NCBI GenBank assembly: GCA_903959855.1
Contig: CAJBYR010000055.1
Span: 1-37,626, forward strand
Source: an uncultured beta proteobacterium
GTDB lineage: Bacteria; Pseudomonadota; Gammaproteobacteria; Burkholderiales; Rhodocyclaceae
Length of the DNA: 37,626 nucleotides
Reading direction: 5' to 3'
Shown here: positions 4,597 through 34,988 of the stretch, in pieces
How positions within the stretch are numbered: the first letter of the stretch is position 1
How the letters are laid out: each line of letters starts with the position of its first letter
Program-made: the position numbers and the translations under genes
The notes under the pieces: generated by a model
Database searches by the model: none
Seen by the model: only the letters and a program-made list of their open reading frames with translations
What the model was told of the DNA's origin: nothing

Positions 4597-4750
4597 CGCT
4601 CTCGCACCGCATCTCGACCCGCCATCGCACCTGGTGGTGCACCACCACCCACAGCTCCCGAACGCCGCTCGCCTCCACACCCCGCTGAAAGCCACGATCG
4701 CGCATGCGATGCAGTCGCCCCCAGGGCGCAGCAGCACGGAGGAGCAGCAG

Positions 4751-7700
4751 ATGAGCATTGCCAACGTAAGTCTTGACGACAAGTACCGGCTGCAGCACGG
4801 CCGCGTGTTCCTCACCGGCATGCAGGCCCTGGCGCGCCTGCCCATGCTGCAACACGAATTCGACCGCCGTGCCGGGCTGCACACCGCCGGCTATGTCTCT
4901 GGCTATCGCGGATCGCCCCTGGGCGGCCTGGATACCGCGCTGCATGCCGCAGAGCCGTATCTGCAGCAATACGACATCAGCTTCCATCCCGGGCTGAATG
5001 AGGACATCGCCGCCACCGCGGTCTGGGGCACGCAGCAATTGCACCTGTTCCCGAAGCCCAGGTTCGACGGCATCTTTTCCATGTGGTATGGCAAAGGGCC
5101 CGGGGTCGATCGCAGCGGCGATGTCTTCCGCCACGCCAACCATGCCGGCACGTCCAAACACGGCGGCGTCCTGCTGATCGCCGGCGATGACCCGTCCGCA
5201 CGTTCCTCGGCCGTGGCGCACCAGAGCGAACATATCTTTTCGGCCTGCGGCATCCCGGTGCTGGCACCATCCAACCTGCAGGAATACCTCGACTACGGCC
5301 TGCACGGCTGGGCCATGTCGCGCTACTCGGGGTGCTGGGTGGCGATGAAGCTGACCTCGGATACCGCCGAAAGCTCGGCCACCGTGGACATCGCCCCGGA
5401 GCGCATGGAATTTGTCATCCCCACCGACTTTGAGCTTCCGCCCGACGGCGTGCACCTGCGCTGGCCCGATCCGCAGCTGGCGCAGGAGCATCGCCTGCAG
5501 CAGTACAAGGTCTATGCCGCCATCGCCTACGCCCGCGCCAACCGCCTCAATCACCTCGTCTTCGACAGCCCGCGCCCGCGCCTGGGCATCATTGCCTGCG
5601 GCAAGGCCTACGTCGACGTGCGCCAGGCCCTCGATGACTTGTGCATCGACGAGCGCTACGCCGCAGAGATCGGTCTGCGCCTGTTCAAGGTGGGTATGCC
5701 CTGGCCGCTGGAAGCCGACTCGGTGCGGCATTTCGCCGAGGGCCTGGAAGAGATTCTGGTGGTCGAGGAGAAGCGCCAGATCATCGAATACCAGCTCAAG
5801 GAAATGCTCTACAACTGGCGCGATGATGTCCGGCCGCGCGTCGTCGGCAAGTACGACGAAACCGGCGAGTGGCCGGTGCCAGAGCATCGTTGGCTGCTGC
5901 CGCCCACCGCAGAGCTGACGCCGACCATCGTCGCCCGCGCCATTGCCGCGCGCATCGGCCGCTTCCACAGCTCGGCGCGCATCAGCGACTGCATTGCCCG
6001 GCTCGATGCAAAGGTGCAATCGCTGTCCAGGCCGCGCATCGCCGTGATGCGCACGCCGTACTTCTGCCCCGGATGCCCGCACAACCAGTCCACCAAGGTG
6101 CCCGAGGGCAGTTGCGCACTGGGCGGCGTCGGCTGCCACCTGATGGCGGTGATGATGGGTCGCAACACCATCACCATCTCGCACATGGGCGGCGAAGGTG
6201 CCGCCTGGCTGGGTCTGGCGGGCCACAGCGGCACGCAGCACGTATTTGCCAACATGGGCGACGGCACCTATTTCCACAGCGGACTGCTGGCGATCCGCGC
6301 CGCCGTCGCCGCTGGCGTGAACATCACTTACAAACTGCTGTTCAACGATGCTGTGGCCATGACCGGCGGCCAGCCCATCGATGGCACCCTCACCGTGCCG
6401 CAACTGACGCGCCAGCTCGCCGCCGAAGATGTGAAACGCATCATCGTGATGTCGGACGAACCGGAAAAATACAAGACGGTTTCCGACTTCGCGCCGGGCG
6501 TCGAGATCCGCCATCGTGATGCGCTTGAGGCTACCCAGCGCGAACTGCGCGAAACCGCCGGCGTCACCGCCCTGATCTACGACCAGACCTGCGCCGCCGA
6601 GAAGCGCCGCCGGCGCAAGCGCGGCGCCTTGGGCGACCCCGACCTGCGCATCTTTATCAACCAGGCGGTGTGCGAGGGTTGCGGCGATTGCGGCATCAAG
6701 TCGAACTGCCTTGCGGTGGTACCGGTGGAAACCGAGTTCGGCCGCAAACGCATGATTGACCAGCACGCCTGCAACAAGGACTACTCCTGCCTCACCGGTT
6801 TCTGTCCCAGCATCGTCACGGTGCATGGCGGCAAGGTCAGGCGCGGGCGGGCATTGCAAAACGACGCCGCGGATTTCGCCGACCTTCCCGAACCGCCTAC
6901 CGTTGCCCTGCCCGATCCCTATGGCATTCTGATTGCGGGCGTCGGCGGTACCGGGGTGGTCACCATCGGTGCCCTGCTCGGCATGGCCGCCCACCTCGAA
7001 GGCAAGGGCGTCACCGTGCTCGACATGACCGGCCTGGCGCAAAAGGGCGGCGCGGTAATGTCACACGTGCGTCTGGCTAACCGCCAGAGCCAGCTGCATT
7101 CGGCACGCATCGCCGCCGGCGAGGCAAAACTGCTGCTGGGCTGCGACATCGTTGTCACGGTCAGCGAGGAAGTCCTGTCCAAGGCCGCCACGGGCTGCAC
7201 CCACGCGGTGGTCAATACCGGGCGCACCATCACCGGAGAATTCATCCGCAATCCGGACCAGCCCTTCCCCGACGGGGCAATGGAACAATCGGTGGCGGAT
7301 GCCGTCGGCACCGGGGCCGCCACTTTCCTCGATGCCGGCCGCCTGGCGACGAAATTGATGGGCCACGCGATGGCGACCAACATTTTCATGCTCGGCTTCG
7401 CCTTCCAGCGCGGCCTGGTACCGCTGTCTTCCGCAGCCATCCTGCGCGCCATCGTACTCAATGGCACGGCGGTTGACGACAACACCCGCACCTTCCACTG
7501 GGGGCGACGCGCCGCACTCGATCCGCAAGGCATCGACGCCATGATCGCCGACGACGAACCCGCCGATCCCGCGCAACGTATTTCAGAAAACCTCGACGAA
7601 ATCATCGAACGCCGCCGCGCCTTTCTTGTCGGGTATCAGGATGAAGCCTATGCGCGCCGCTATGTTGAACTCGTTGCGCAGGTGCGGCAGCGGGAGTTGA

Positions 7701-8245
7701 AAGTCGGCGCTGACGGTACGGCGCTCAGCGAAGCCGTCGCCCGCAATTACTTCAAGCTGCTGGCCTGCAAGGATGAATACGAAGTGGCGCGGCTGTTTGC
7801 CAGCCCCGCATTCGGCCATCAACTGGCCGCCAGTTTTGACGGCGAATACCGGCTCAATTTCTACATCACCCTGCCCTGGAACCGGGGCGTCAAGCCCGGT
7901 GACGAGCCGAAAAAGATCCGCTTCGGCCCCTGGCTGTTGCCGGCAATGAAGCTGATGGCCGGCTTGAAGTTTCTGCGTGGCACGGCCTTCAATCCCTTCG
8001 GCCGGATGCCCGAGCGGGTAAAGGAGCGCGAGCTGATTTCCGAATACGAAGCCACGGTCGGGCGCATCCTCGAACGTCTCGACCCCAGCAATCGCGACGC
8101 GGCCGTGGCGCTGGCGCGCGTGCCGGAAACGATACGCGGCTTCGGGCCGGTGAAGGAGCGCTCAATGGAGGCGGCGACGGCGAAGCGCGGGGAGTTTATG
8201 GCGGCGTTTGAGAGGATGGATACTCCAGCACCACTGGCCGGCTAG
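4751..8245 (+). CDS. Fused indolepyruvate:ferredoxin oxidoreductase-type 2-oxoacid oxidoreductase
   Basis: A 1164-residue protein. The start is ATG 4751 after GGAGGAGCAGCAG; the track start at 4574 overlaps the upstream gene and adds unrelated sequence. Domain order: pyrimidine-binding alpha domain (GYVSGYRGSPLGGLD, about residues 45-60), cofactor domain with CPGCPHN near 438 and the thiamine-diphosphate motif GDGTYFHSGLLA near 502, a cysteine cluster VCEGCGDCGIKSNC and CNKDYSCLTGFCPS around 640-690, and a C-terminal gamma-type domain starting GVGGTGVVTIGALLG near 729. This is the long proteobacterial fusion of IorA and IorB. Such enzymes oxidise aryl pyruvates and related 2-oxoacids to acyl-CoA while reducing ferredoxin; several of the long fusions have no proven substrate. 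The preceding double-cluster protein is a candidate electron partner. It ends the first operon. Confidence 0.92.
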   Translation: MSIANVSLDDKYRLQHGRVFLTGMQALARLPMLQHEFDRRAGLHTAGYVSGYRGSPLGGLDTALHAAEPYLQQYDISFHPGLNEDIAATAVWGTQQLHLFPKPRFDGIFSMWYGKGPGVDRSGDVFRHANHAGTSKHGGVLLIAGDDPSARSSAVAHQSEHIFSACGIPVLAPSNLQEYLDYGLHGWAMSRYSGCWVAMKLTSDTAESSATVDIAPERMEFVIPTDFELPPDGVHLRWPDPQLAQEHRLQQYKVYAAIAYARANRLNHLVFDSPRPRLGIIACGKAYVDVRQALDDLCIDERYAAEIGLRLFKVGMPWPLEADSVRHFAEGLEEILVVEEKRQIIEYQLKEMLYNWRDDVRPRVVGKYDETGEWPVPEHRWLLPPTAELTPTIVARAIAARIGRFHSSARISDCIARLDAKVQSLSRPRIAVMRTPYFCPGCPHNQSTKVPEGSCALGGVGCHLMAVMMGRNTITISHMGGEGAAWLGLAGHSGTQHVFANMGDGTYFHSGLLAIRAAVAAGVNITYKLLFNDAVAMTGGQPIDGTLTVPQLTRQLAAEDVKRIIVMSDEPEKYKTVSDFAPGVEIRHRDALEATQRELRETAGVTALIYDQTCAAEKRRRRKRGALGDPDLRIFINQAVCEGCGDCGIKSNCLAVVPVETEFGRKRMIDQHACNKDYSCLTGFCPSIVTVHGGKVRRGRALQNDAADFADLPEPPTVALPDPYGILIAGVGGTGVVTIGALLGMAAHLEGKGVTVLDMTGLAQKGGAVMSHVRLANRQSQLHSARIAAGEAKLLLGCDIVVTVSEEVLSKAATGCTHAVVNTGRTITGEFIRNPDQPFPDGAMEQSVADAVGTGAATFLDAGRLATKLMGHAMATNIFMLGFAFQRGLVPLSSAAILRAIVLNGTAVDDNTRTFHWGRRAALDPQGIDAMIADDEPADPAQRISENLDEIIERRRAFLVGYQDEAYARRYVELVAQVRQRELKVGADGTALSEAVARNYFKLLACKDEYEVARLFASPAFGHQLAASFDGEYRLNFYITLPWNRGVKPGDEPKKIRFGPWLLPAMKLMAGLKFLRGTAFNPFGRMPERVKERELISEYEATVGRILERLDPSNRDAAVALARVPETIRGFGPVKERSMEAATAKRGEFMAAFERMDTPAPLAG

Positions 8246-20355: not shown

Positions 20356-21393
20356 ATGTTCATCAAGAACTGCTGGTATGTGGCCGCCTGGGACACCGAG
20401 GTCCCGGCCGACGGATTCCTGACGCGGACCATCACCGGTGTGCCGGTCGTACTTTGGCGTGACTCCACCGGCAAAATAGTTGCTTTCGAGGACCGCTGCT
20501 GCCACCGTGGCGCGCCCTTGTCGAAAGGTCGCCGCGAAGGCGATTGCCTGCGCTGCATGTACCATGGCCTGAAGTTCGACCGCAGCGGCACCTGCGTTGA
20601 AATCCCCTCGCAAAAGACTATCCCGCCGCAAGCCAGGGTGCGCAGCTTCCCTGTCGTCGAAACCCATCGCTGGGTCTGGATCTGGATGGGCGACGCCGCA
20701 GCGGCCGACACGGCCCTGGTTCCGGATACCCACTGGCTCAACGATCCCGCCTGGCGCAGCAACGACGGCTACATTCACTACGATGTCGGCTACCTTCTGA
20801 TCGCCGACAACCTGCTCGATTTTTCGCACTTGCCTTACGTCCATCCGACGACGCTCGGCGGCAGCGAAGACTATGCCAAGGTGGTACCGAAGGTGGAACG
20901 CACAGCGCGCGGGGTCAAGGTCACCCGCTGGACAATCGATACCGAAGCGCCGGGTTTCATCCAGAAAGTGCGCCCGTTCGCCGGCCGCGTCGACCGCTGG
21001 AACATCTACGACTTCGTCATGCCTGGGGTACTGCTGATGGATTCCGGGATGGCGCTCACCGGTACCGGCGCACCGGACGGAAATCGCATCGACGCCGCCG
21101 AATTCCGCGGCTGCCAGGCGCTGACACCGGAAACCGAAAACTCCACCCACTACTTCTTCGCCCATCCACACAACTTCCTGATCGACCGCCCGGATGTCAC
21201 GACATCAATCCATCAGAGCGTAGTCACCGCGTTCGCCGAAGATCGCGAAATGATCATGGCCCAGCAAACATCGCTGTCGCAGGACGGCGGATTCAAGATG
21301 GTCAATCTCGGCATCGATTCGGCGCTCACGCAGTTCCGCTGGATGGTAAGCCGCCAGATCGAGGAAGAAAGCAAGCATGCCGCAGCCGCCTGA
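20356..21393 (+). CDS. Rieske non-haem iron oxygenase, VanA/DdmC-like O-demethylase type
   Basis: A 345-residue oxygenase subunit of the length of vanillate and dicamba O-demethylases. The Rieske [2Fe-2S] ligands are in CCHRGA (C-x-H) and CMYHG (C-x2-H); the mononuclear iron region is DNLLDFSHLPYVH, with the Asp bridge and two His. The C-terminal stretch TPETENSTHYFFAHPHNF is very like the same region of dicamba monooxygenase. The start ATG 20356 follows GGAGGAG. Family enzymes use O2 and electrons from a VanB-type reductase to oxidise a methoxy or N-methyl carbon, releasing formaldehyde. The next gene encodes that reductase and overlaps by 17 bp. Substrate is not known. It is the first gene of the operon that also encodes a corrinoid methyl-transfer system. 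Confidence 0.92.
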   Translation: MFIKNCWYVAAWDTEVPADGFLTRTITGVPVVLWRDSTGKIVAFEDRCCHRGAPLSKGRREGDCLRCMYHGLKFDRSGTCVEIPSQKTIPPQARVRSFPVVETHRWVWIWMGDAAAADTALVPDTHWLNDPAWRSNDGYIHYDVGYLLIADNLLDFSHLPYVHPTTLGGSEDYAKVVPKVERTARGVKVTRWTIDTEAPGFIQKVRPFAGRVDRWNIYDFVMPGVLLMDSGMALTGTGAPDGNRIDAAEFRGCQALTPETENSTHYFFAHPHNFLIDRPDVTTSIHQSVVTAFAEDREMIMAQQTSLSQDGGFKMVNLGIDSALTQFRWMVSRQIEEESKHAAAA

Positions 21394-22339
21394 CACCCTC
21401 AACCTGAGGGTTGCCGCGCGCCGGGCCATTGCCGATGAGGTCGTCGAGTTGGAGTTGCGGTCGATCGACAACGCGCAACTGCCTGGCTTTGAACCCGGCG
21501 CGCACATCGACGTCCATCTCGCGAACGGCATGGTGCGCCAGTATTCACTCGCCAACTATCAGCCTGCCCCCGACAGCTACACTATCGCCGTCGGCCTCGC
21601 AGTCGCCTCGCGCGGCGGATCGAAACACATCCACGAGTCAATTGCGGTTGGCGACCTTCTGCCGGTCAGCTTGCCGCGCAACAGTTTCCCACTCGATCCG
21701 GCTGCGGCAGGCTATGTCTTCATCGCTGGCGGCATCGGCATCACGCCCATCATGAGCATGGTCCGCTGGTGCGAAATGTCGCGCACGCCCTGGCGCCTGC
21801 TTTACAGTGCCAGAAGCCGGCAACGCGCTGCCTACGCCGAGCAACTGGCCGCGCTCGGCGGCGAGCGCGTCCATCTGCATTTCGATGACATTACCGGCAG
21901 CTTTGCCGACCTCGACAACTACCTCGCCAAATTGCGCGCCGAAGACCAGGTCTATTGCTGCGGTCCCGAACCATTGATGCAGGCCGTCGGCCGGGCTGCG
22001 GCACACCATCCGGCCAGTCATGTTCGCTTCGAGCACTTCAGCGTTGTACCCACCGATGCGCCGTCACTGAATCACGCCTTCACGGTGCGTTTGACGCAGA
22101 GCGCACGCGACCTTCCGGTTCCAGCCGACATCAGCATCCTTGATGCCCTAGATCTGGCCGGCATCGCACATCCCTTCGGCTGCCGGGAGGGGCTATGCCG
22201 AAGCTGCGAAGCCGAGGTCTGCGGTGGCATTCCCGACCATCGCGATTTCGTGCTATCGGACGAAGAACGCGCAGCCAACCGCAGCATCATGGTTTGCGTA
22301 TCACGGTCGAAGTCCGACTGCCTGGAACTGAAACTCTAG
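21377..22339 (+). CDS. VanB-like phthalate-dioxygenase-family reductase (FMN, NADH, 2Fe-2S)
   Basis: A 320-residue reductase. Order: flavin domain with RQYSLANYQ, the FMN-binding counterpart of RxYS; NAD domain with FIAGGIGITPIMSM near residue 113 and CCGPEPLMQAV near 194; C-terminal plant-type ferredoxin domain with CREGLCRSC and a distant Cys in MVCVSRS. This is the standard electron donor for class IA/VanAB-type Rieske oxygenases. The start overlaps the oxygenase gene by 17 bp, so the two are coupled. Because a MetV-MetF-type protein begins 9 bp downstream, the reductase might also give electrons to that enzyme or to the corrinoid reactivator; this is speculation. Confidence 0.92.
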   Translation: MPQPPDTLNLRVAARRAIADEVVELELRSIDNAQLPGFEPGAHIDVHLANGMVRQYSLANYQPAPDSYTIAVGLAVASRGGSKHIHESIAVGDLLPVSLPRNSFPLDPAAAGYVFIAGGIGITPIMSMVRWCEMSRTPWRLLYSARSRQRAAYAEQLAALGGERVHLHFDDITGSFADLDNYLAKLRAEDQVYCCGPEPLMQAVGRAAAHHPASHVRFEHFSVVPTDAPSLNHAFTVRLTQSARDLPVPADISILDALDLAGIAHPFGCREGLCRSCEAEVCGGIPDHRDFVLSDEERAANRSIMVCVSRSKSDCLELKL

Positions 22340-22348
22340 GGTCTAGCC

Positions 22349-23764
22349 GTGTTGGCCCTCCGCTACTGGTCGGTGCGCCACGCCCGGGGACTGGCCCGCG
22401 CTTACGACTTTCTGGCATCACTTGCACCGTGGCTTGCCCCACTGGCCAGAATCATCGGAATAGCCAGGGTGGAAGCCGCGTTGCGCCCCGTCGAGCGCCT
22501 CGCAAAAACGACCTTGTTCGATTGCCGCATGTGCGGCCAGTGCGTGCTTTCAGCGACCGGAATGGCCTGCCCGATGAATTGCGCCAAGGAAATGCGCAAT
22601 GGCCCCTGTGGCGGCGTAAGGCCGGACGGCAGTTGCGAAGTCCACCCCTCTCTGCGCTGTACCTGGACTGAAGCCGTCGCCGGCGCCAACAGGATCGCCG
22701 CCGATCGCGGAGCCCGCCCGACACCATTGCTGCCGGCGATCGACCAGCGCCGACATGGCGCCTCGACTTGGATTCAGGTACTTCAGGGCCGCCCCGACCC
22801 GGCGTTCCAGCCAGCCGTCGGCGAGCGAGTGACGCGCGCAACCGGGCAAGGAGGGCTTGAGCAAGCCTGCAACTCCGGTCGTCTGGTCGTCACTGTTGAA
22901 GTTGCACCACCGGATTCGGCGCGTCCCGAACCCCTGCTGCGGCGAGCCCGGCTGTTTGAAGGCCTGGTCGACGCCATCAATATTACCGACGGCGCCGGCG
23001 GCAACTGCCACATGTCCAGCGTCGCCGCCTCGGCCATTCTGGCCGAACATGGCCACACGCCGGTCTATCAGATCGCCTGCCGTGATCGCAATCGGATTGC
23101 CATCCAGGGGGACATCCTTGGTGCCGCTGCGCTCGGCGTCAGGAACATACTGTGCCTGACCGGTGACGATGTCAGCCAGGGTGACCATCCCGAGGCCAAG
23201 CCCGTGTTCGACCTGGATGCGGTTTCGCTGCTCCACATCACCCGTGGCATGTGTGATCGAGGGGAGTTTGCCTCCGGTCGCAAGTTGCAGGAGGCCCCCG
23301 ACCTGTTCATCGGCGCAACGACGAATCCCTTTGTGCCGCCGTTTTCCGATCGCATCGCGAATCTGGAAAACAAGGTGCTGGCCGGAGCGCGCTTCATCCA
23401 GACGCAGTTCTGCTTCGACCTCAAGCGCTTTGAAGCCTTCATGCACCAAGTGCGACAGCGCGGACTCGACCGCCGCGCCCATATCATCGTCGGTGTCGGA
23501 ACCCTGAATTCGGCAAGGGCCTTGCGCTGGATGGCCGAGAACGTTCCTGGCGTATATATCCCGCCGGAGGTGCTGGCCAGAGTCGAATCCGCATCCGACC
23601 AGGCGCGCGAGGCACGCCTGGTATGCGGCGAAATAATGCGAGCCGTCACCAGGATCCCCGGGGTCGCCGGCATTCACCTCATGGGCCACCGCAACGAGGA
23701 GGTACTCGCCGAAATCATTGACGAGCACGACTTGCGTCGGCAGCCGCGTTTGTATACCGTCTGA
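22349..23764 (+). CDS. Methylenetetrahydrofolate reductase with N-terminal MetV-like cysteine-rich domain
   Basis: A 471-residue protein starting with GTG at 22349. Residues 59-104 hold eight cysteines (C59, C62, C65, C74, C78, C87, C96, C104) in DCRMCGQCVLSATGMACPMN and NGPCGGVRPDGSCEV, the pattern of the MTHFR C-terminal/MetV domain that binds zinc or iron-sulfur clusters. From about residue 170 a MetF TIM barrel follows (VVTVEVAPP, INITDGAGG, CRDRNRIAIQGDILGA, NILCLTGDDV, FIQTQFCFD). In acetogens MetV and MetF are separate subunits of the enzyme; here they are fused, V before F. In this operon it would oxidise methyl-THF made by the corrinoid system to methylene-THF. The C-terminal helical regulatory domain of eukaryotic enzymes is absent. 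Confidence 0.9.
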   Translation: MLALRYWSVRHARGLARAYDFLASLAPWLAPLARIIGIARVEAALRPVERLAKTTLFDCRMCGQCVLSATGMACPMNCAKEMRNGPCGGVRPDGSCEVHPSLRCTWTEAVAGANRIAADRGARPTPLLPAIDQRRHGASTWIQVLQGRPDPAFQPAVGERVTRATGQGGLEQACNSGRLVVTVEVAPPDSARPEPLLRRARLFEGLVDAINITDGAGGNCHMSSVAASAILAEHGHTPVYQIACRDRNRIAIQGDILGAAALGVRNILCLTGDDVSQGDHPEAKPVFDLDAVSLLHITRGMCDRGEFASGRKLQEAPDLFIGATTNPFVPPFSDRIANLENKVLAGARFIQTQFCFDLKRFEAFMHQVRQRGLDRRAHIIVGVGTLNSARALRWMAENVPGVYIPPEVLARVESASDQAREARLVCGEIMRAVTRIPGVAGIHLMGHRNEEVLAEIIDEHDLRRQPRLYTV

Positions 23765-23785
23765 CTATCACAACAAGGGAGGAAC

Positions 23786-24451
23786 ATGATGAGCGACATG
23801 ACCGACAAAGAGCGGCAGTTGGTGGAGTGGCTGTCCGACATGAACGAGGACGATGCCCTGGACCTGGCCAAGAAGATGCTGCTGGAAGAAGGCGTCTCGC
23901 CGCTGCGCGTTCTGGAACTCTGCCGCAACGCCATGGACATCGTCGGCAAGCGCTTCGAGGAAGGCGAGTATTTCCTCCCTGAACTGGTGCTGGCCGGTGA
24001 GATGCTGGAAACCATCGGCGCCATCGCCAAGCCCCTGATCACGCATGCGCCCGGCGAGGAGCCAAAGAAGCTCGGCAAGGTGCTGATCGGCACGGTCCAT
24101 GGCGACCTGCACGACATCGGCAAGAACATCGTCAGCTTCATGCTCGACATCAACGGCTTCGACGTCAAGGATATCGGGATCGATGTGCCGGTGAAGACCT
24201 TCATCGAGGAGATCCGCGCCTACGAACCCGATGTGGTCGGGCTGTCGGGCTTCCTGACCCTGGCCTTCGACTCGATGAAGGAAACCATCGCGGCCTTCGA
24301 GAAGGAAGGGATGCGCCAGCAGTTCAAGGTGATGATCGGTGGCGGGCAGATCGACGAGACGGTGCGCGCCTATACCGGCGCCGATGCCTTCGGCATCAAC
24401 GCGGTGGAGGCGGTGAACCTGTGCCGCAGCTGGACGGAGAAGGCCGCATGA
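23786..24451 (+). CDS. Corrinoid (B12-binding) methyl-carrier protein
   Basis: A 221-residue protein of the MtaC/MtbC/MtvC type. Residues 1-90 form the helical cap domain (EEGEYFLPELVLAGEM), and from about 97 the Rossmann-like cobalamin domain begins. GDLHDIGKN gives D107-x-H109-x-x-G112, whose His is the lower cobalt ligand in base-off/His-on binding; VVGLSGFLTLAFDSM and MIGGGQI complete the B12 pocket. GGGAGGAAC precedes the start; the second codon is also ATG and cannot be excluded. Its stop overlaps the methyltransferase start (ATGA). It should carry the methyl group between the two methyltransferases of the operon. Confidence 0.95.
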   Translation: MMSDMTDKERQLVEWLSDMNEDDALDLAKKMLLEEGVSPLRVLELCRNAMDIVGKRFEEGEYFLPELVLAGEMLETIGAIAKPLITHAPGEEPKKLGKVLIGTVHGDLHDIGKNIVSFMLDINGFDVKDIGIDVPVKTFIEEIRAYEPDVVGLSGFLTLAFDSMKETIAAFEKEGMRQQFKVMIGGGQIDETVRAYTGADAFGINAVEAVNLCRSWTEKAA

Positions 24452-25713
24452 ATACCGCCACCCAACCCGCCACCGACGCCAAGGCCGCCTACGACGCACG
24501 CTGGAAGCGCATCCTCGATTGCGTCGCCCTGAAACAGGCGGATCGCATGCCGGTGATCATGTATGCCACGTACTGGCTGGCGCGCTACGGCGGCATCAGC
24601 AACAAGGAGCTGATGTACAACTATGAGAAGACGGCCGAGATATCCGAACGCGCCGTGCTTGAATTCGAACCCGATGCCTGTATTTCGCTGGTCGGCGCCA
24701 ATGCCCTGGGGCGGGTGTTCGAGGCCACCGATTACAAGCAACTGAAGTGGCCGGGACACGGTGTCGGTGACGACCAGCCCTACCAGTATCTCGACCGTGA
24801 GTACATGAAGGCCGACGAGCTCGGCGAACTGGTACGCGACCCCACCGCCTTCTACCTCAACAAGTATCTGCCGCGGATCTTCGGCGCCTTTGAAGGCTTC
24901 GAGCACTTTCCGGCACTTCCGGGCATGTTCTATTTCCGTGCCATCACCGGCCTGCGCCCCTTCGCCAATCCCGACTTGCGCAAGGCACTGCGACGCGTGC
25001 TCGATGCCGCTGACGAAGTCGAGATCTACATGAACCACGCCGGACAGTGGAACCGCCGCATTGCCTCGCTCGGCTTTCCACTGATCAATGGCAGTGCATC
25101 CGGTGCACCCTATGACGTGCTTGCAGACTATTTCCGCGGTGCGACAGGAATGATGAAGGACCTGTTCCGCCACAAAGAGCAGTTGCTCGAAGCCATCGAC
25201 ATGATGCGGCGCAATCTGGTGCGCATGACCATTGCCAATGCCAAGGCATCGGGCAACCCCATCGTCTTCATCCCCATCCACTGGGCGCCGGACGCCTTCA
25301 TGTCGCCCAAGCAGTTCGAGACCTTCTGGTGGCCGAGCTTCCGCCAGATGATGGTCGAACTGATCGAGGCCGATTTGATCCCCATGCCGCTATGGGAATC
25401 TGACTGCACCAAGCGCCTGGAGATCATCAAGGACGTGCCTGCCGGAAAATGCATTTACTGGTTCGAACGTACCGACATTGTCAAAGCCTACGAGGTTCTT
25501 GGCGACCGGGTGGCATTGCGCGGCAACCTCTCGCCCTCGATGATGACCACCGGCACACCGGCTGACGTCGATGCCGCGGTCAAGCGGCTGGTCGACGAAA
25601 TCTGGAACAAGGGTGGCAGCCTGATGCTGGATACAGCCTTTGGCATTCCCGACGAAACCCCGGTTGAAAACGTTCGCGCAATGTTCGATTCGGCGCGCAA
25701 GTACGCCGGCTGA
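24448..25713 (+). CDS. UroD/MtaA-family corrinoid methyltransferase (candidate methyltransferase I)
   Basis: A 421-residue protein of the uroporphyrinogen-decarboxylase fold used by MtaA, CmuA and acetogen methyltransferases. The start ATG 24448 overlaps the corrinoid-protein stop by ATGA and has GGAGAAGG before it; the track start at 24421 is inside the upstream gene. The fold landmarks include RMPVIMYATYW at the N-terminus, RGNLSPSMMTTGTPADV and a C-terminal FGIPDETPVENV. In MtaA-type enzymes zinc is held by a His-x-Cys pair and a later Cys; here the corresponding places read PLWESDC and TAFGI, so the metal site differs. Genuine haem UroD is unlikely because of its context. The role inferred is methyl transfer from an unknown methylated substrate to the corrinoid protein. 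Confidence 0.85.
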   Translation: MNTATQPATDAKAAYDARWKRILDCVALKQADRMPVIMYATYWLARYGGISNKELMYNYEKTAEISERAVLEFEPDACISLVGANALGRVFEATDYKQLKWPGHGVGDDQPYQYLDREYMKADELGELVRDPTAFYLNKYLPRIFGAFEGFEHFPALPGMFYFRAITGLRPFANPDLRKALRRVLDAADEVEIYMNHAGQWNRRIASLGFPLINGSASGAPYDVLADYFRGATGMMKDLFRHKEQLLEAIDMMRRNLVRMTIANAKASGNPIVFIPIHWAPDAFMSPKQFETFWWPSFRQMMVELIEADLIPMPLWESDCTKRLEIIKDVPAGKCIYWFERTDIVKAYEVLGDRVALRGNLSPSMMTTGTPADVDAAVKRLVDEIWNKGGSLMLDTAFGIPDETPVENVRAMFDSARKYAG

Positions 25714-25718
25714 GCACC

Positions 25719-26399
25719 ATGCGCGCTTCTCGCGGCTTCGATGTCCTGCGCGAGGTGGCGGATGCACCGCCGCGCGTGCGCCGTTCGCCGGTCGGCGAGC
25801 GACAGCGACTGAAGGCGCTGGACCTGCTGCGTCGCGAACGGCTTGTCGAAACCGCTTACTGCTATTGCATTGTTCCGCTCGATGCCCCGCCTGCAGCGGT
25901 GCTTCATGCTGCTGGAGAAAGCCTCGAAGCCCCCTGGCTGCTTCCGGAATCGGGCGAACTGACCGCCATTGCCTGTGCCGTTTGCACCATCGGCACGGCC
26001 TACGAACACCGCGTAAGCCAACTCTTCGCGGAACGTCAGGCCTCGCTGGCAATGGCCCTCAACGACCTGGGTAACGAACTGCTGTTTGCGGTATCGCGCC
26101 GCGCGCAGGATCGAATTCAGGCAGACGTGAATCGACGCGGACTGTCGATGGCCGGCGAACTGCGTCCGGGCGACCCCGGGCTGGCAATCGAGGCGCAGGG
26201 CCCCGTATTGCGATTGGCCTGCGCTGACACCATCGGCATCACGCTGGGGCCGGGCGGGCTGATGAATCCCGTCAAGTCGTGCTCCATGGTGCTCGGCGTC
26301 GGCATCGGCCTGCCCGCCGTCAAATGGTCGCGCTGCGACCATTGCCCGACACGACACAAATGCCGGGTTGTCGAGCCAGCGGCAGGGGCTGCCGCGTAG
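25719..26399 (+). CDS. Stand-alone methionine-synthase activation-domain-like protein
   Basis: A 226-residue protein that resembles the vitamin-B12-dependent methionine synthase activation domain without the rest of MetH. Landmarks are the late GITLGPGGLMNPVKSCSMVLGVG, matching the SAM/cobalamin-facing part of that domain, and CDHCPTRHKC, a C-x2-C-x5-C cluster that could hold an Fe-S centre or zinc. AIACAVCTIGTAYEHRVSQLF is typical of these small relatives, which are found beside corrinoid methyltransferases in anaerobes. It lies 5 bp after the methyltransferase and 6 bp before the RACE-type reactivator. A role in repair or docking of the oxidised corrinoid protein is inferred; no activity is proven for the stand-alone family as far as I know. 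Confidence 0.82.
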   Translation: MRASRGFDVLREVADAPPRVRRSPVGERQRLKALDLLRRERLVETAYCYCIVPLDAPPAAVLHAAGESLEAPWLLPESGELTAIACAVCTIGTAYEHRVSQLFAERQASLAMALNDLGNELLFAVSRRAQDRIQADVNRRGLSMAGELRPGDPGLAIEAQGPVLRLACADTIGITLGPGGLMNPVKSCSMVLGVGIGLPAVKWSRCDHCPTRHKCRVVEPAAGAAA

Positions 26400-26405
26400 C
26401 CGCCC

Positions 26406-28268
26406 ATGAATGCGCCCACCACACGCACTCACCGCCTGCGCTTTCCCGAACTGGGTCGGGAGATCGACGCCAACAGCGACGAGACCATTTTTCATGCCGC
26501 ACGTCGCAACGGCCTGCGCATTGTCGGCGCCTGTGGCGGTCGGGGTACCTGCGGCACCTGTGTCGTACGCGTCACCGAAGGGCGTATCGACCATGTGCAT
26601 TCCGCACCGCCGGAACGGCTCGAAACCAACGTACCAACATCTGATACGGGCGCGCCGCATGGCCGGCGCAAGTGGCTGCGCGCCTGCCAGCTGCGTGTCC
26701 GCAGTGATTGTGTCGTCGAGGTCGCCCCTCGCTCGCTCGCCCCAGTTGTCCGCGCCGATATTGATATGGCCGATTCCGGCATCGATGATGCCCTCGATCC
26801 GGCCGTCAGCGTCTGCGATCTCAGCCTGCCAGCCGCCACGCTCGCCGACCCGCTGAGCGACGCGGATCGAGTTGCGCGGGCCTTGCGCCTGCCCGCGGTG
26901 GCGATCGATCTTGGCGCCGCCCGGGCCCTTCCCGGCGCCTTGCGCGACAGCGAGGAAAACGACACCTGGACGGTGCGCGTACATCTGCGCGGCAACGAGG
27001 TGATTCGCTTCTCCGCGCCGGGTAGCCGGACCCTTGGCCTGGCTGTCGATCTCGGTACCACCAATGTCGCCGCCTTCCTGCTTGATCTCGAAACCGGCCA
27101 GCGCATCGCCGGCCTCGGCATAGAGAACCCCCAGACCGCCTGGGGTGCCGACCTGATCAGCCGGATCAACCATGCCATTCGCAGCCCGCAGGCGCTGGGC
27201 GAGTTACGCACGGCAGCCGTCGCCGCGATCAATGGCCTGGCCCATGACCTTTGCCGCGACCTCGGCGCCGGCACACAGGACATTGTCGATGCCGCGATTT
27301 GCGGCAACACCGCAATGCATCATCTGCTGCTTGGCCTGCCTGTGCGCCAGCTTGGCCGCGCGCCCTTCGTTGCTGCAAGCCTAAAGGCCATGGACCTGAA
27401 GGCGCGTGATCTCGGCTTGGCTTTCTGTCCGGGCGCCGGAGTTCACCTGGCGCCGAGCGTCGGCGGCTTTGTTGGCGGCGACCACGTCACCGCCCTGCTC
27501 GCCACCGAGGAACGCTGGCGCACGGGTGGTACCAGCCTGGTGATGGATATCGGCACCAATACCGAAATCTCGCTGATACATCAGGGGCGCATCGTGTCGG
27601 CCTCCTGCCCCTCCGGCCCGGCCCTGGAAGGGGGCCACATTTCCTGCGGCATGCGCGCCGCCGACGGGGCCATCGAGCGGGTTGGCGTGAATGGCAGGCG
27701 CCTGTCGATACGCACCATCGGTGGTGAAGACGCCGTCGGCCTTTGCGGGTCCGGCGTGCTTGACACCCTTTCCGCCATGCGTCGCCTCGACATCCTCAGC
27801 GCACGCGGCCGTATCGCCGAAGGGTATGAGGATGTCGTCGACCACGAAGGTGTCAGAGCCGTCCGACTGGCCCCGGGAGTGCACTTTTCTCAGCACGATG
27901 TGCGCGCCGTACAACTGGCCAAAGCGGCGATCCGTGCCGGCACCGAAATGTTGCTGCGCGAGCAAGGCATCACCGAGCAACAAATCCAGCGCTTCATCGT
28001 CGCCGGGGCCTTTGGCGCCTATATCGATATTGCCAGCGGCATCGACATCGGGCTTTTTCCCGACCTGCCCGTTACACGTTTCGAACAGGTAGGTAATGCC
28101 GCCGGTCTTGGAGTACGGCGCCTGCTGACAAGTCTCGCGGCCCGCCGCCGCGCCACCGAAATCGCGGCTGCCTGCAAATACATCGAGCTATCGACGCGCA
28201 GCGACTTCCAGCAATGCTTCCTCCACCACATCGCCTTTCCAGACCCTATTCCGAGGAGACCCGCGTGA
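26406..28268 (+). CDS. RACE-type reductive activator of corrinoid proteins (2Fe-2S plus ASKHA domain)
   Basis: A 620-residue protein. The N-terminal ferredoxin domain has C43, C49, C52 and C94 (GACGGRGTCGTC ... LRACQ). After a linker, the DUF4445/ASKHA ATPase domain follows with LAVDLGTTNVAAFLLDLETG near 216, ENPQTAWGADLISRI, MDIGTNTEISL near 380 and VAGAFGAYIDI near 538. Proteins of this design (RamA relatives, acetogen activating enzymes) use ATP to reduce inactive Co(II) corrinoid to Co(I). RamA-type activators have two [4Fe-4S] clusters instead, so this is the plant-ferredoxin-type class. Its stop overlaps the next start (GTGA). It strongly supports a working corrinoid methyltransferase system rather than a relic. 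Confidence 0.93.
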   Translation: MNAPTTRTHRLRFPELGREIDANSDETIFHAARRNGLRIVGACGGRGTCGTCVVRVTEGRIDHVHSAPPERLETNVPTSDTGAPHGRRKWLRACQLRVRSDCVVEVAPRSLAPVVRADIDMADSGIDDALDPAVSVCDLSLPAATLADPLSDADRVARALRLPAVAIDLGAARALPGALRDSEENDTWTVRVHLRGNEVIRFSAPGSRTLGLAVDLGTTNVAAFLLDLETGQRIAGLGIENPQTAWGADLISRINHAIRSPQALGELRTAAVAAINGLAHDLCRDLGAGTQDIVDAAICGNTAMHHLLLGLPVRQLGRAPFVAASLKAMDLKARDLGLAFCPGAGVHLAPSVGGFVGGDHVTALLATEERWRTGGTSLVMDIGTNTEISLIHQGRIVSASCPSGPALEGGHISCGMRAADGAIERVGVNGRRLSIRTIGGEDAVGLCGSGVLDTLSAMRRLDILSARGRIAEGYEDVVDHEGVRAVRLAPGVHFSQHDVRAVQLAKAAIRAGTEMLLREQGITEQQIQRFIVAGAFGAYIDIASGIDIGLFPDLPVTRFEQVGNAAGLGVRRLLTSLAARRRATEIAAACKYIELSTRSDFQQCFLHHIAFPDPIPRRPA

Positions 28269-29152
28269 CCGCATCCCCCGACTTCGCCATCCGCATCATC
28301 GGCGAACGTATCAATCCCGGCTTCAAGAGCACCCGCGGCCTGTTCGACAATGAAGACATACCAGGCATTCAGGCACTGGCGGTGAAACAGGCAGAGGCTG
28401 GCGCGAGCTTCCAGAACGTCAACATCGGCGCCCGCGCCATGACCGATCCCGAGTTCATGACGAAAATCATCACGGCGATTCAGGATGTCGTGAGTACGCC
28501 GCTTTCCTTCGACTTTCCGAGCAAGAAGGTGCAGGAGATCTGCCTCTCCGCCTACCGGCCGGAGCGGGCCGATGGTGCCCTGCCGATCGTCAATTCGATC
28601 ACCGAGCATCGCTGGGACCTCATGGAACTCTACGGCCGCTTCCGCTTCAAGGTCATCCTCATGGCATCGGAACGCATGGAAGACGGTATCGCCAGGGGCA
28701 ACAAAACGGCCGACCAGATCTACGGCACGGCACGCCGGGCCACGTTGCGCCTGCAGAACGACTACGGGATGCCGCTCGACGACATATTCATCGACATGTC
28801 GGTATCGGCCATCATCGCCGACACGGTGGGCCTCAATCGGGCGACCATCGATGCCATCAAACTGATCGGCGCCGACCCGGAGCTCAAGGGCGTGCACATG
28901 ATGGGCGGCCTCTCCAACATCGGCCAGCAATTGCCACCCAAGGCCGCCGACGGCTCCGACCTCAAGCACTGCCTGGAAAATGCCTTCCTCACCCTCAGCG
29001 TGCCACATGGCTTCGACACCGTGCTCGGTACGCCGTGGCGCGGCTACGCCCCGTTGCCCGAAGACCACTATGTGCTGAAGACGTATCGCAATTTCCTAGA
29101 GCAATCGGGCACAAATGCCCTGCGCGCCGTGCGCAAGTTCTACAAAGCCTGA
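28265..29152 (+). CDS. Methylcorrinoid:tetrahydrofolate methyltransferase (pterin-binding, MeTr/MtvA type)
   Basis: A 295-residue pterin-binding TIM barrel, the size of AcsE/MtvA methyltransferases. The start is GTG 28265 with AGGAG upstream and a 4-bp overlap with the activator gene; the track start at 28214 is inside that gene. The opening IRIIGERINPGFKSTR matches the GERIN motif of the family, followed by FQNVNIGARAMTDPEF, PIVNSITEHRW and IFIDMSVSAI at pterin-contact positions. The first of these reads NVN where many relatives have DxN. It should pass the methyl group from the corrinoid protein to tetrahydrofolate, giving the substrate for the MetV-MetF fusion. Dihydropteroate synthase is the other family member, but its loops and context do not fit. 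Confidence 0.9.
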   Translation: MTASPDFAIRIIGERINPGFKSTRGLFDNEDIPGIQALAVKQAEAGASFQNVNIGARAMTDPEFMTKIITAIQDVVSTPLSFDFPSKKVQEICLSAYRPERADGALPIVNSITEHRWDLMELYGRFRFKVILMASERMEDGIARGNKTADQIYGTARRATLRLQNDYGMPLDDIFIDMSVSAIIADTVGLNRATIDAIKLIGADPELKGVHMMGGLSNIGQQLPPKAADGSDLKHCLENAFLTLSVPHGFDTVLGTPWRGYAPLPEDHYVLKTYRNFLEQSGTNALRAVRKFYKA

Positions 29153-30361: not shown

Positions 30362-30438
30362 TTGGCAGTTGCCGGCTCCCGGATCGGCACCGAGGCTGGT
30401 AACCTATCCGCATTGCTCTTGAGCGTGCGCGCACCGAC

Positions 30439-31440
30439 ATGACCCCCAGCCAGATCGTCAAGTTTCTCGACCAGCATGTGGTCGGCCAGGAAGAAGCCAA
30501 ACGCCAGTTGGCCGTCGCCGTCTATACCCACTACCGCAAGATCGCGCTGGCGGCGCCGGAAAAGCTCGATATCATCAAGAGCAACGTGCTGCTGATCGGC
30601 CCCACCGGCACCGGCAAGACGCTGTTGTGCGAAACCCTGTCGCGCGTCCTCGGCGTGCCCTTCGTCACCGCCAACGCCACCTCGCTGGCGCAAAGCGAAT
30701 ACGTCAATGACGAGATCGTCGCCATCCTCGAGCGCCTGATCGACAAGGCTGAGGGCGACGTCGGCCGTGCCCAGCGCGGCATCGTCTTCATCGACGAGAT
30801 CGACAAGCTCAAGGTAAACGAGACGCAGCAGATGCAACTGCGCGGCACCTCGGGCGAGGGCGTGCAGCATGCCCTGCTGAAGATCATGGAAGGCGCGCCG
30901 GTCAAGCTCAAGGAAACAGCCTACATCGACACCACCGAGATCCTCTTCATCTGCGGCGGCGCCTTTGTCGGCATCGAGAGCATTCTTGCGCGCACCCATT
31001 CCTTCGGCTTCATTTCGACCTCGGAGGACGACAACCAGAAGCTGCTCGACCGCCTCAACGCCCGCATCAAGCCCACCGACTTGTTCGAATACGGGCTGAT
31101 CCAGGAATTCGCCGGGCGCCTGCCCGTGGTGGCTTCGCTGCTGCCGCTGTCGCGCGAGATGATGGTGCGCATCATGACCGAGCCGAAGAACTCGATCTAC
31201 GAGCAATACCGCCAGATTCTCCGGGACTCGGGCGTCGATCTGCTGATCGAGCCGCTGGTGTTCGAGCAGATCGCCGATCTGGCGATGGAATACAAGGTCG
31301 GCGCGCGCAGCCTGCGCGGCATCTTCGAGGAAATGCTGACGCCGGTGATCTACCTGGTACCCGACCATCCCGAGGTGAAACAGGTGCGCATCACCTCGCT
31401 GTTCGAAAACCCCCGCTACATCGGCCAGAAATCGGCGTAA
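30439..31440 (+). CDS. ClpX-like AAA+ ATPase without zinc domain, RKH loop or GYVG pore motif
   Basis: A 333-residue protein that aligns with ClpX over the whole AAA+ module: QHVVGQEEAKRQLAVAVYTHY, Walker A GPTGTGKT (54-61), Walker B IVFIDEID (115-122), sensor region EFAGRLPVVA and the C-terminal GARSLRGIFEEML with sensor-2 Arg. ClpX is about 420 residues; the N-terminal C4 zinc-binding domain is missing. The pore-1 loop GYVG reads EYVN (87-90), the RKH substrate loop is deleted (LLKIMEGAPVKLKETAYIDT), and the IGF ClpP-docking loop reads SFGF. It is therefore not the housekeeping ClpX, although ATP binding and hydrolysis look intact. No clpP is near. It may be a dedicated remodeller for a neighbouring enzyme; client unknown. 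Confidence 0.9.
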   Translation: MTPSQIVKFLDQHVVGQEEAKRQLAVAVYTHYRKIALAAPEKLDIIKSNVLLIGPTGTGKTLLCETLSRVLGVPFVTANATSLAQSEYVNDEIVAILERLIDKAEGDVGRAQRGIVFIDEIDKLKVNETQQMQLRGTSGEGVQHALLKIMEGAPVKLKETAYIDTTEILFICGGAFVGIESILARTHSFGFISTSEDDNQKLLDRLNARIKPTDLFEYGLIQEFAGRLPVVASLLPLSREMMVRIMTEPKNSIYEQYRQILRDSGVDLLIEPLVFEQIADLAMEYKVGARSLRGIFEEMLTPVIYLVPDHPEVKQVRITSLFENPRYIGQKSA

Positions 31441-31514
31441 TACCAGCGCCGGCTCTTGCCCCGGCGAAGGCAGCTCGGCCGATTGTGCGCGGCGCAGGTT
31501 TGTTGGATAATCGA

Positions 31515-31531
31515 TTGTATACCGCATACAA
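31515..31531. promoter_or_regulatory. Perfect dyad of GntR-operator type before the HADH-ECH fusion gene
   Basis: TTGTAT-ACCGC-ATACAA is a perfect inverted repeat with 6-bp arms and a 5-bp centre, ending 10 bp before the ATG of the next gene and just ahead of its AAGGA site. GntR-family repressors such as VanR and several catabolic FCD members bind sites built on TTGTATAC/ATACAA. No GntR gene is in the window, so the regulator would be elsewhere. Confidence 0.55.
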
Positions 31532-31541
31532 GGATGTCGAC

Positions 31542-33554
31542 ATGACCAGCCGCTTCGCCAATCCGCTACTCGCCACGCCCGCCCGCCCCCTGCCCCGCGC
31601 TGTTGCCATCATCGGCGCCGGTACCATCGGCCCGGATATCGGCTACTACCTGAAGAGCGCGATTCCCGGCCTCAAGCTCTACCTGGTCGACGTCAATCAG
31701 AAGGCTGTCGAATCCGCGCTGCTGCGCTTTGCCGAGTATTCGCGAAAAGCCGTGGCGCGCGCCAAGATGAGTGAGGCCGAAGCGAAGGACGTAGTCACCC
31801 ACCTCTACGGCACCATGGATTACGCCGACATTGCCGATGCCGACTGGGTGATCGAGGCCGCCACCGAGAACCTGCCGCTGAAGCGCAAGATCTTCGCCAT
31901 GATCGAAGCCGTGGTGCGGCCCGATGCGCTGATCACCTCGAACACCAGCTCGCTGCCGGCGGAACTGATTTTTTCCGAAATGCGGCACCCGGCCCGCGCC
32001 ACCGTGACGCACTTTTTTGCCCCCGCCTGGCGCAACCCGGCGGTCGAAGTCATCGAATGGAAGAAGTCCGACCCGGCCGTGGTTGACTACCTGCGCTGGG
32101 CCTTCTGCGTCACCGGCAAAGTGCCGCTGCTCACGGCCGACGTCGCCTGCTTCATGCTCGACCGCATTTTCGACAACTGGTGCAATGAGTCGGCCCTGCT
32201 GCTCGACCGCGCCACCGCCGCAGAGGTCGATAGCGTCGCCAGCGAGTTTGTCCACGCCGGCCCCTTCTTCGTGCTGAATCTCGCCAACGGCAACCCCATC
32301 ATCACCGAGACCAACACCCTGCAGGCCGAGATGGAGGGCGCGCATTACGATCCGGCGCCGATCTTCAAGTCGGTCGATACCTGGGTCACCGTGCCGCCCG
32401 GCAAAAAGGTCGCCGTCGCCCCGGCTACCGCGCAGGCGATCCGCCAGCGCCTGCTGGGGATACTCTTTTCGCAGAGCGTGGACATCGTCGACCGCAAGAT
32501 CGGCGATTCGGCCGACCTCGACCTCGGCTGCCGCCTGGCACTGGGCTTCAAACACGGCCCGCTCGACCTGATGCGCATGCTGGGCGAGCAGACCACCGGC
32601 CAGGCGCTGATACGCCTGCGCAGCGAGCGCGCCGGGATGCCCATGCCGACGCGGCCCTTCGATGCCTATCAGGGCTTCCTGCGCCACATCCTGGTCGACG
32701 ACCTCGGCGATGTGAAAGTCATCACCCTGCGCCGCCCCGAGGCGATGAACGCCCTGCACGACGAAATGAACGACGAGATCCTTTCGGTGATCCGCCGCTT
32801 CGAGAGCGACCCCAAGGTCACCGGTTTCGTCATCACCGGCTACGGCACCAAGGCCTTCTGTGCCGGTGGCGACATCGGCCGCTTCGTGGATATGCTGGGC
32901 GATGCCGACGCCTCGGCGCAGTACGCACGCGATTGCTCGCGCCTGCTGGTGCACCTCGACCAGATGAAGAAGCCGGTGGTCGCCGCACTCAACGGCATCG
33001 CCCTGGGCGGAGGCTTCGAGCTGGCCTCGCGTTGCCACAGCATCGTGGCGCTTAAGCGTGCCTGGATCCAGATGCCCGAGGTGACCCTGGGCATCACCCA
33101 CGGCATCGGCGCCATGGCCGTGCCCTACCGCCGCTGGCCGCATGCGGCGCCGACCTTCAACGCCATGCTGCGCACCGCAGAGCGACTGAAGGCCGCGCGT
33201 GCCCATGAACTGGGCATCATCGACGGCATCGCCGACGACGTCGACCACCTGGTGGCGATGGCCGTGGCGCGGGCGCGCGAACTCGCCGGCAAGATCAAAC
33301 CGATCGGCGACAATCCCGTGCAAGTCCGCATCGATCCGGTCGACGCACGTGCCGCCAGCGGCCAGGTGCTGAGCCGCGAGTGCATCGAACTGATGGAGCG
33401 CTCGATCCTCGAAGCGGCGGCAGCGGCGAGCTTTGCTGAGGCGCTGGAAGTCGGCTACCGTTCCTTCGGCCTCTCCGCCTGCCTCGACAGCGCGCGCGAG
33501 GGCATCACGGCCTTCAAGGAAAAGCGCACGCCGGACTTCAGCAAGACCAAATGA
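31542..33554 (+). CDS. 3-hydroxyacyl-CoA dehydrogenase/enoyl-CoA hydratase fusion (dehydrogenase first)
   Basis: A 670-residue bifunctional protein. The ATG 31542 follows AAGGA; the track start at 31485 would include the operator. NAD-binding GAGTIGPDIGYY is at residues 25-36, the dehydrogenase stretch SNTSSLPAE and catalytic His in THFFAPAWRNPAVE follow, and the second 3HCDH domain reaches about residue 370. From about 385 a crotonase domain begins: RRPEAMNALHDEMND, oxyanion motif AFCAGGDIG, GIALGGGFELASRC and MPEVTLGI, with both Glu positions used by hydratases present. FadB has the opposite order (hydratase first). Dehydrogenase-first fusions are known in archaea and in some bacterial acyl-CoA routes. 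It probably hydrates an enoyl-CoA and oxidises the 3-hydroxyacyl-CoA. Specific chain or ring substrate is unknown. Confidence 0.92.
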   Translation: MTSRFANPLLATPARPLPRAVAIIGAGTIGPDIGYYLKSAIPGLKLYLVDVNQKAVESALLRFAEYSRKAVARAKMSEAEAKDVVTHLYGTMDYADIADADWVIEAATENLPLKRKIFAMIEAVVRPDALITSNTSSLPAELIFSEMRHPARATVTHFFAPAWRNPAVEVIEWKKSDPAVVDYLRWAFCVTGKVPLLTADVACFMLDRIFDNWCNESALLLDRATAAEVDSVASEFVHAGPFFVLNLANGNPIITETNTLQAEMEGAHYDPAPIFKSVDTWVTVPPGKKVAVAPATAQAIRQRLLGILFSQSVDIVDRKIGDSADLDLGCRLALGFKHGPLDLMRMLGEQTTGQALIRLRSERAGMPMPTRPFDAYQGFLRHILVDDLGDVKVITLRRPEAMNALHDEMNDEILSVIRRFESDPKVTGFVITGYGTKAFCAGGDIGRFVDMLGDADASAQYARDCSRLLVHLDQMKKPVVAALNGIALGGGFELASRCHSIVALKRAWIQMPEVTLGITHGIGAMAVPYRRWPHAAPTFNAMLRTAERLKAARAHELGIIDGIADDVDHLVAMAVARARELAGKIKPIGDNPVQVRIDPVDARAASGQVLSRECIELMERSILEAAAAASFAEALEVGYRSFGLSACLDSAREGITAFKEKRTPDFSKTK

Positions 33555-33818: not shown

Positions 33819-34988
33819 ATGTACCCTCGCCTCGCCACTGATCGCCTGCATACCCTTGCCGCCCGGTTTCCCGCCGTGGTCATTCTCGGCGCACGCCAGG
33901 TGGGCAAGACCACGCTGGCCCGGCAGGCGTTTCCCGATCATGCCTATGTCGATCTCGAAGACCCGCGCACCGGCGAGTTGTTCGGCGACGACCCGCGGTT
34001 TCAACTGGACCAGCATAGCCTTGGCAGCGGATTGATCATCGACGAAGCCCAGGCGGTGCCGGCAGTCTTCGCCGCCTTGCGCGGGGCGATAGACGCCGAC
34101 CGGCAGGCGCGCGGGCGATTTGTGGTGCTGGGCTCGGCGCAGCCGACGCTGGTGCGCGGAGTGTCCGAATCGCTTGCCGGGCGCGTCGGGCTGCTCGAAC
34201 TCGACCCTCTCACTGCCAGCGAAACGAGGGCGACGCCTCCGCTTCGCTCGTGGCGCGAGCTATGGCTCTGTGGCGGCTTTCCGGATGCGCTGGCGGCCGG
34301 CGTCGATGGCTTCCGCGACTGGCACGAAGCCTATTTGCGCAGCTATGTCGAGCGCGACCTGCCTCAGCTTGGCATTGCCGCCGAGCCCATTTTGACGCGC
34401 CGGCTGCTGACCATGCTGGCGCACCAGCAGGGCGGCCTGCTCAACGTCAGCAACCTGGCGGCGGCGCTGGGGGTCGGCCACGCCAAGGTGGCCCGCCTGC
34501 TCGATGTGTTCGAGGCGACCTTTCTGTTGCGCCGGCTGCCGCCCTGGTTTCGCAATGTCGGTAAGCGGTTGGTCAAATCGCCCAAGACCTACCTGCGCGA
34601 CAGCGGGCTGGTGCACCATCTGCTGAATATCGGACGCATGGATGAACTCGACAGCCACCCGATCAGGGGCGCCAGCTGGGAAGGCTTTGTACTCGAAGAC
34701 CTGCTGCGCCGCGAGCGCCTGGCCCATCCGCAGACCCAGCCGCATTTCTGGCGCACCGCCGCCGGTGGCGAGATCGATCTGCTGCTCGATCACGGCAATC
34801 TGCGCCATGCCATCGAGATCAAGGCGGGGCGCGGTACGGCCCATCAGGCGCGCCACCTGGCGGCGATGATGCAGGATGTCGAAGCGCAGCAGGGCTGGAT
34901 CGTCGACCAGGGTGATGCGGCCGAAACCGCGATCAATCCCTCCGTGAGCGGAGTGGGTGTGGAAAAGGCGCTGGGCTTGCTGCCATGA
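33819..34988 (+). CDS. DUF4143-type AAA ATPase (AAA_14/DUF4143)
   Basis: A 389-residue protein. The N-terminal ATPase has Walker A VILGARQVGKTTLARQ (about 22-37) and Walker B GLIIDEAQ (about 70-77), and FVVLGSAQPTLVRGVSESLAGR, typical of AAA_14 proteins. The C-terminal DUF4143 half has the winged-helix-like LLNVSNLAAALGVGHAKV and a nuclease-fold-like end with GEIDLLLDHGNLRHAIEIKAGRGT, in which Asp-x(n)-Glu-x-Lys recalls restriction-endonuclease-like folds. These proteins are common, often patchily distributed, and of unknown function; a mobile or toxin-related origin has been suggested for some. It stands alone between unrelated genes. Confidence 0.88.
   Translation: MYPRLATDRLHTLAARFPAVVILGARQVGKTTLARQAFPDHAYVDLEDPRTGELFGDDPRFQLDQHSLGSGLIIDEAQAVPAVFAALRGAIDADRQARGRFVVLGSAQPTLVRGVSESLAGRVGLLELDPLTASETRATPPLRSWRELWLCGGFPDALAAGVDGFRDWHEAYLRSYVERDLPQLGIAAEPILTRRLLTMLAHQQGGLLNVSNLAAALGVGHAKVARLLDVFEATFLLRRLPPWFRNVGKRLVKSPKTYLRDSGLVHHLLNIGRMDELDSHPIRGASWEGFVLEDLLRRERLAHPQTQPHFWRTAAGGEIDLLLDHGNLRHAIEIKAGRGTAHQARHLAAMMQDVEAQQGWIVDQGDAAETAINPSVSGVGVEKALGLLP

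Follow-up and report, generated by a model that had tools for sequence, protein, structure and literature searches.

A conserved ClpX-like AAA+ unfoldase paralogue of Burkholderiales without zinc domain or RKH loop: a possible alternative partner of ClpP

In E. coli ClpX, the RKH loops touch the substrate above the pore, and their mutation from RKH to AAA abolishes degradation of ssrA-tagged substrates and raises ATPase activity approx. 5-fold (PMC7112951), while either the I268L substitution or an altered length of the IGF loop severely weakens binding to ClpP (PMC7112951, citing Amor et al. 2019). Among additional ClpX proteins, ClpX3 of Myxococcus xanthus (MXAN_2743) is encoded by an isolated gene, has neither N-terminal domain nor RKH motif, and, as a deletion shows, is needed for normal growth at 36 °C (PMC11423568), and ClpX2 of Azotobacter vinelandii is 76% identical with the clpP-adjacent ClpX of Azoarcus BH72 and is thus of the canonical type (PMC3916325). 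In the present study we examined a further ClpX-like protein, encoded in a 37626-nucleotide stretch of DNA from an uncultured member of the Rhodocyclaceae, the whole of which is referred to below as the window.

The open reading frame at positions 30439–31440 of the plus strand encodes 333 residues; a first-pass annotation, made from the DNA letters, had described it as a ClpX paralogue with an intact frame, and both its coordinates and its frame proved correct. The product aligns with E. coli ClpX from directly past the zinc domain nearly to the C-terminus and matches the Pfam families AAA_2 and ClpB_D2-small. Both NCBIfam ClpX models span its whole AAA+ module with scores below their curated cut-offs (NF003745, 356.6 compared with 359; TIGR00382, 324.9 bits compared with 370.75). 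The anatomy was read from a sequence alignment to the solved E. coli ClpX structures and to 91 orthologues, on which the loop geometry given here rests. The features of the locus are as follows.

30397..30405, plus strand: extended −10-like element TGGTAACCT, 42 bp before the ATG
30439..31440, plus strand: ClpX-like AAA+ unfoldase paralogue, 333 amino acids, without N-terminal zinc domain
30598..30621, plus strand: Walker A, GPTGTGKT, with the family-invariant C64 next to it on the same helix
30697..30708, plus strand: pore-1 loop EYVN (canonical GYVG), aromatic residue retained and both glycines substituted
30781..30807, plus strand: Walker B, IVFIDEIDK
30904..30918, plus strand: site of the RKH-loop deletion, KLKET where the canonical PPQGGRKHP... 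runs ~10 residues longer
31003..31011, plus strand: FGF tripeptide where canonical ClpX has the ClpP-docking IGF, [FY]G[FY] in the family and followed by a conserved I
31117..31119, plus strand: arginine finger R227 (EFAGRL)
31306..31308, plus strand: sensor-2 arginine R290 (GARSLR)

The first-pass annotation had held that the ATPase core was intact while the zinc domain and the RKH loop were gone, and all three statements were borne out. The ClpX-type motor motifs, i.e. Walker A and B, sensor-1, the arginine finger and sensor-2, are present in the window protein by alignment to the E. coli structures and are kept throughout the 91 distinct orthologues, none of which carries an upstream in-frame CxxC...CxxC, and in all members the RKH loop is deleted, with ~10 residues fewer than the canonical form. 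The replacement of the pore motif GYVG by EYVN was likewise confirmed by alignment to the E. coli structures and the orthologues. The first pore-1 position is occupied by E in 42 members, K in 27, R in 16, Q in five and D in one, glycine never being retained, and is followed by an aromatic residue (Y or F) in 91/91, by V in 90 and then by N in 74. By comparison, GYVG is found in all 21 canonical ClpX proteins that we examined from genomes holding the paralogue, and the first glycine is always kept in these 21 and in 80 phage ClpX proteins. The search for homologues with EYVN and no RKH loop, suggested as a check on the original reading, thus found the same anatomy, with the pore-1 variation just given, recurring in 91 distinct orthologues, far beyond chance.

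The loop that docks on ClpP in canonical ClpX requires a more qualified statement. It had been described as SFGF in place of IGF; the residue change is real, but the tripeptide is altered, with FGF aligned to IGF, and not lost. The form [FY]G[FY] is present in 88 of 90 members, with the central glycine in 90/90 and I as the following residue in 85/90, and the loop is ~3–4 residues shorter than the canonical IGF loop, on the N-terminal side. The first residue of the tripeptide is aromatic in the paralogue family and aliphatic in canonical ClpX, and since it was always aliphatic (I, L, M or V) in the 21 canonical and 80 phage proteins, the [FY]G[FY] tripeptide is, on this comparison, a conserved family state and not decay. 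The loop is followed by a conserved, family-specific stretch, LDRLNxRVKP, in which N207, K211 and P212 are invariant; the residues specific to the family and absent from canonical ClpX include C64, Q85, H144, N207, K211 and Y285.

A normal clpX elsewhere in the genome, a further check suggested at the outset, was found. The 4.26 Mb window genome contains a second, complete clpX (G000:C27), with zinc domain and adjoining clpP and lon, whose product is 43% identical with the paralogue, as well as a single clpP and its own hslU (C151). In 20/20 further holder genomes clpP likewise adjoins a full-length clpX of the canonical type, whose product has the zinc domain, GYVG and RKH, and a search of the holder genomes for a second, dedicated clpP found none, each having one full-length copy. 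Values of dN/dS against the window copy were 0.06–0.24, and 0.03–0.20 for other close pairs, which shows that the paralogue is under purifying selection. The proposal that selection had kept it for a special job therefore stands, in the sense of a maintained, specialized paralogue alongside normal ClpX.

The family comprises at least 91 distinct orthologues of 56–97% identity, carried by 34/101 near relatives, by 71/247 genomes of the window's own family, Rhodocyclaceae (16/62 genera), and by 31/399 genomes of its own order, Burkholderiales; the named relatives are mainly Sulfuritalea and other Rhodocyclaceae. No member was found outside the order in samples of 370 genomes from the class and 397 from the phylum, a search that members more divergent than ~47% identity could have escaped, and two class-level matches at 47% were rejected as family members, being canonical ClpX. 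In the tree a long stem leads to the paralogues, which are united as one clade (100/100) and fall outside that of the proteobacterial clpX genes. A topology in which the two are joined was rejected by the AU test (p = 0.016), and with it a recent duplication of the local clpX, with caution for long branches. Strict vertical descent, with the copies of the window's family held as one clade, was also rejected (p = 0.011); because families are, in addition, intermixed in the gene tree within the order, these data suggest some horizontal transfer plus loss within Burkholderiales. Plasmids and phages gave no match at ≥60% identity, and carriage by either was rejected, the best IMG/VR relatives being ordinary phage ClpX. 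In the library searched, no paper was found that describes this family or a ClpX paralogue of Rhodocyclaceae or Sulfuritalea; the paralogues are a real and conserved ClpX subfamily of Burkholderiales, apparently uncharacterized.

The first-pass annotation had also taken the neighbouring genes to indicate a metalloenzyme or an acyl-CoA enzyme as client. This inference should be dropped: the genes flanking the paralogue vary from lineage to lineage, and neither the corrinoid operon nor the HADH-ECH gene tracks it. The operon adjoins the paralogue only in the window and in a sister genome (G017; L064/L096). HADH-ECH lies nearby in 11/83 loci, all from close relatives, and genome-wide is as common with the paralogue as without it (13/15 versus 6/7 in the same genus; 2/26 versus 3/30 elsewhere). 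The paralogue, moreover, appears to be transcribed from a promoter of its own. In 22 of the 32 close orthologues TG[CGT]TA[ACT][TC]CT is matched no more than 65 bp from the start, compared with 0.15 expected from shuffling. The pattern was, however, picked on sight of the sequences, and some of these orthologues have inherited their upstream sequence in common, which makes the evidence good but not blind. The element sits 22–62 bp before the start, and many of its carriers have differing upstream genes. Given a context that is not conserved and an apparent promoter of the gene's own, the neighbours are uninformative on the client, and a client guessed from them was rejected. A heat-shock promoter was likewise rejected, sigma-32-like sites (≤3 mismatches) being found upstream in 35 sequences compared with ~24 in simple shuffles, a slight and unconvincing excess of weak sites.

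Several features of the surroundings are recorded here in their own right. On the plus strand of the window, positions 20356–29149 encode a Rieske/VanA-type oxygenase, a ferredoxin-reductase-like protein, MTHFR with DUF5981, a UroD/MtaA-like methyltransferase, a RACo-type corrinoid activator and a pterin-binding methyltransferase; this cluster resembles a methyl-transfer (O- or N-demethylation) operon and is kept as a block in G017. The HADH-ECH fusion (31485–33554, plus strand) has its 3-hydroxyacyl-CoA dehydrogenase half ahead of its enoyl-CoA hydratase half, in the opposite order to FadB/FadJ; most of the genus has it, as do scattered other members of the family. Elsewhere on the same strand, 33819–34985 encodes an AAA_14/DUF4143 protein with a strong match (303 bits) to the PADLOC candidate defence family PDC-S01, and 4574–8245 encodes a 1223-residue 2-oxoacid:ferredoxin oxidoreductase fusion with DUF6537 (indolepyruvate oxidoreductase type), adjoining a 4Fe-4S protein and a periplasmic binding protein. 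In one Rhodocyclaceae lineage (L053, L055–L061 and L083) the paralogue is divergent beside genes that by eye resemble cutA and dsbD, with a conserved TG[CT]TATTCT element between them.

Our best explanation, to which we give a probability of roughly 0.45, is that the paralogue is an alternative, narrow-specificity ClpX-type unfoldase that most likely docks on the genome's single ClpP. Long separate from clpX and presumably expressed from its own promoter, it would, judging from its intact motor motifs, assemble into a ClpX-like hexameric motor and pull polypeptides through the pore by means of the pore-1 aromatic residue. In the absence of zinc domain and RKH loops, substrates tagged with ssrA or delivered by the usual adaptors would not be taken, and by analogy with the E. 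coli RKH-to-AAA mutant, in which degradation is abolished, it is fair to predict that ordinary ssrA and adaptor recognition has been lost. A small set of clients would instead be recognized by the altered pore-1 loop or by some partner, and docking on ClpP, perhaps weak or conditional, would occur through the [FY]G[FY]-I loop; if docked, the paralogue would share ClpP with ClpX, as each genome has only one. The conserved aromatic-Gly-aromatic-I motif at the docking position favours such docking. The E. coli loop mutants, by analogy, argue against it, the paralogue differing in both first residue and loop length, and on the sequence evidence we tentatively put ClpP docking somewhat ahead of a ClpP-free role.

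That ClpP-free role, which the first-pass annotation had raised and in which the protein would be a remodelling ATPase that releases its one client after unfolding or maturing it, with the aromatic loop contacting another partner, is a credible second choice. ClpX acts in this way on MuA, and mitochondrial ClpX on ALAS. In favour of such a role are a loop changed in the two respects that weaken ClpP binding in E. coli, the family-specific LDRLNxRVKP with its invariant residues and the single ClpP of the holders. Against this, a loop that no longer docked should drift, yet this one has kept the hydrophobic-Gly-aromatic form of docking tripeptides. The strictest version, a Burkholderiales-confined subfamily fully off both ClpP and the ssrA/adaptor system, serving as a dedicated ATPase for one conserved client complex bound by the [FY]G[FY] loop, we consider unlikely. 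A heat- or stress-tolerance ClpX acting on denatured proteins and not on a narrow client set, in the manner of M. xanthus ClpX3, appears less likely still: the isolated gene, the missing N-terminal domain and RKH motif and the growth phenotype of the clpX3 mutant at 36 °C (PMC11423568) are in its favour, but the sigma-32-like excess is unconvincing and the Myxococcales protein compared below is just 37% identical, with GYYG and IGF. Mixed hexamers with canonical ClpX that tune ClpXP are very improbable; canonical ClpX occurs alongside the paralogue in the same genomes, and the two have a common ATPase architecture, but with 42% identity and so long a separate history the compatibility of their interfaces is doubtful. 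Finally, a decaying or mis-assembled clpX copy, for which one relative with a broken frame (L058) might be cited, is already contradicted by 91 distinct orthologues with nearly all frames unbroken, dN/dS values of 0.03–0.24 and a conserved motor.

The family represents a natural experiment in which the ClpX engine is kept, the known recognition parts are removed and the pore and docking loops are rewired uniformly across an order. It makes directly testable what a minimal ClpX motor can recognize once zinc domain and RKH loops are gone, and whether ClpP can be driven through a loop of the form aromatic-Gly-aromatic. In addition, some Burkholderiales genomes may contain a second protein of a different kind that an automatic ‘clpX’ label conceals.

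Compared with canonical ClpX (E. coli; PDB 6wr2 and relatives; NF003745/TIGR00382), the paralogue has the AAA+ large and small domains and all motor motifs in common at ~43% identity, and differs in having no zinc domain and no RKH loop, EYVN as pore-1, FGF in a shorter loop, scores under both curated cut-offs and a gene that does not adjoin clpP. ClpX2 of A. vinelandii, which acts in NifB/NifEN turnover, is also a second, non-housekeeping ClpX, but is canonical in type, whereas the paralogue is only 43% identical with the canonical ClpX of its own genome; as nifH does not track the paralogue either (13/41 holders and 11/37 non-holders), identity with the nitrogenase-linked ClpX2 was rejected. 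HslU resembles the paralogue as a related AAA+ unfoldase without zinc domain or RKH loop, but has a long inserted I domain; the window protein has none, scores only 176 bits with the HslU model TIGR00390 (cut-off 362), far weaker than with the ClpX models, and comes from a genome with its own hslU, and it was therefore rejected as an HslU. Phage ClpX proteins (80 IMG/VR contigs) have the ClpX core in common at 38–46% identity, but unlike the paralogue family keep the zinc domain in 78/80. Among other atypical sequences, an aligned Lachnospiraceae ClpX-like protein (L074) has pore-1 GYIG, no RKH motif in a loop of the same length, and a retained N-terminal cysteine region; a second from this family (L075, unaligned) looks similar, and the two are possibly a further atypical form of ClpX. 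A Myxococcales ClpX-like protein (L077, 1929–3233), with no zinc domain or RKH and with pore GYYG, is probably of the M. xanthus ClpX3 type and was used as its proxy. It falls outside the paralogue clade at 37% identity and retains IGF, and by this proxy the losses of zinc domain and RKH loop in the two types look independent. M. xanthus ClpX3, similarly encoded by an isolated gene and similarly without N-terminal domain and RKH motif, is nevertheless a published precedent, and a ClpX without these parts is not new as a kind.
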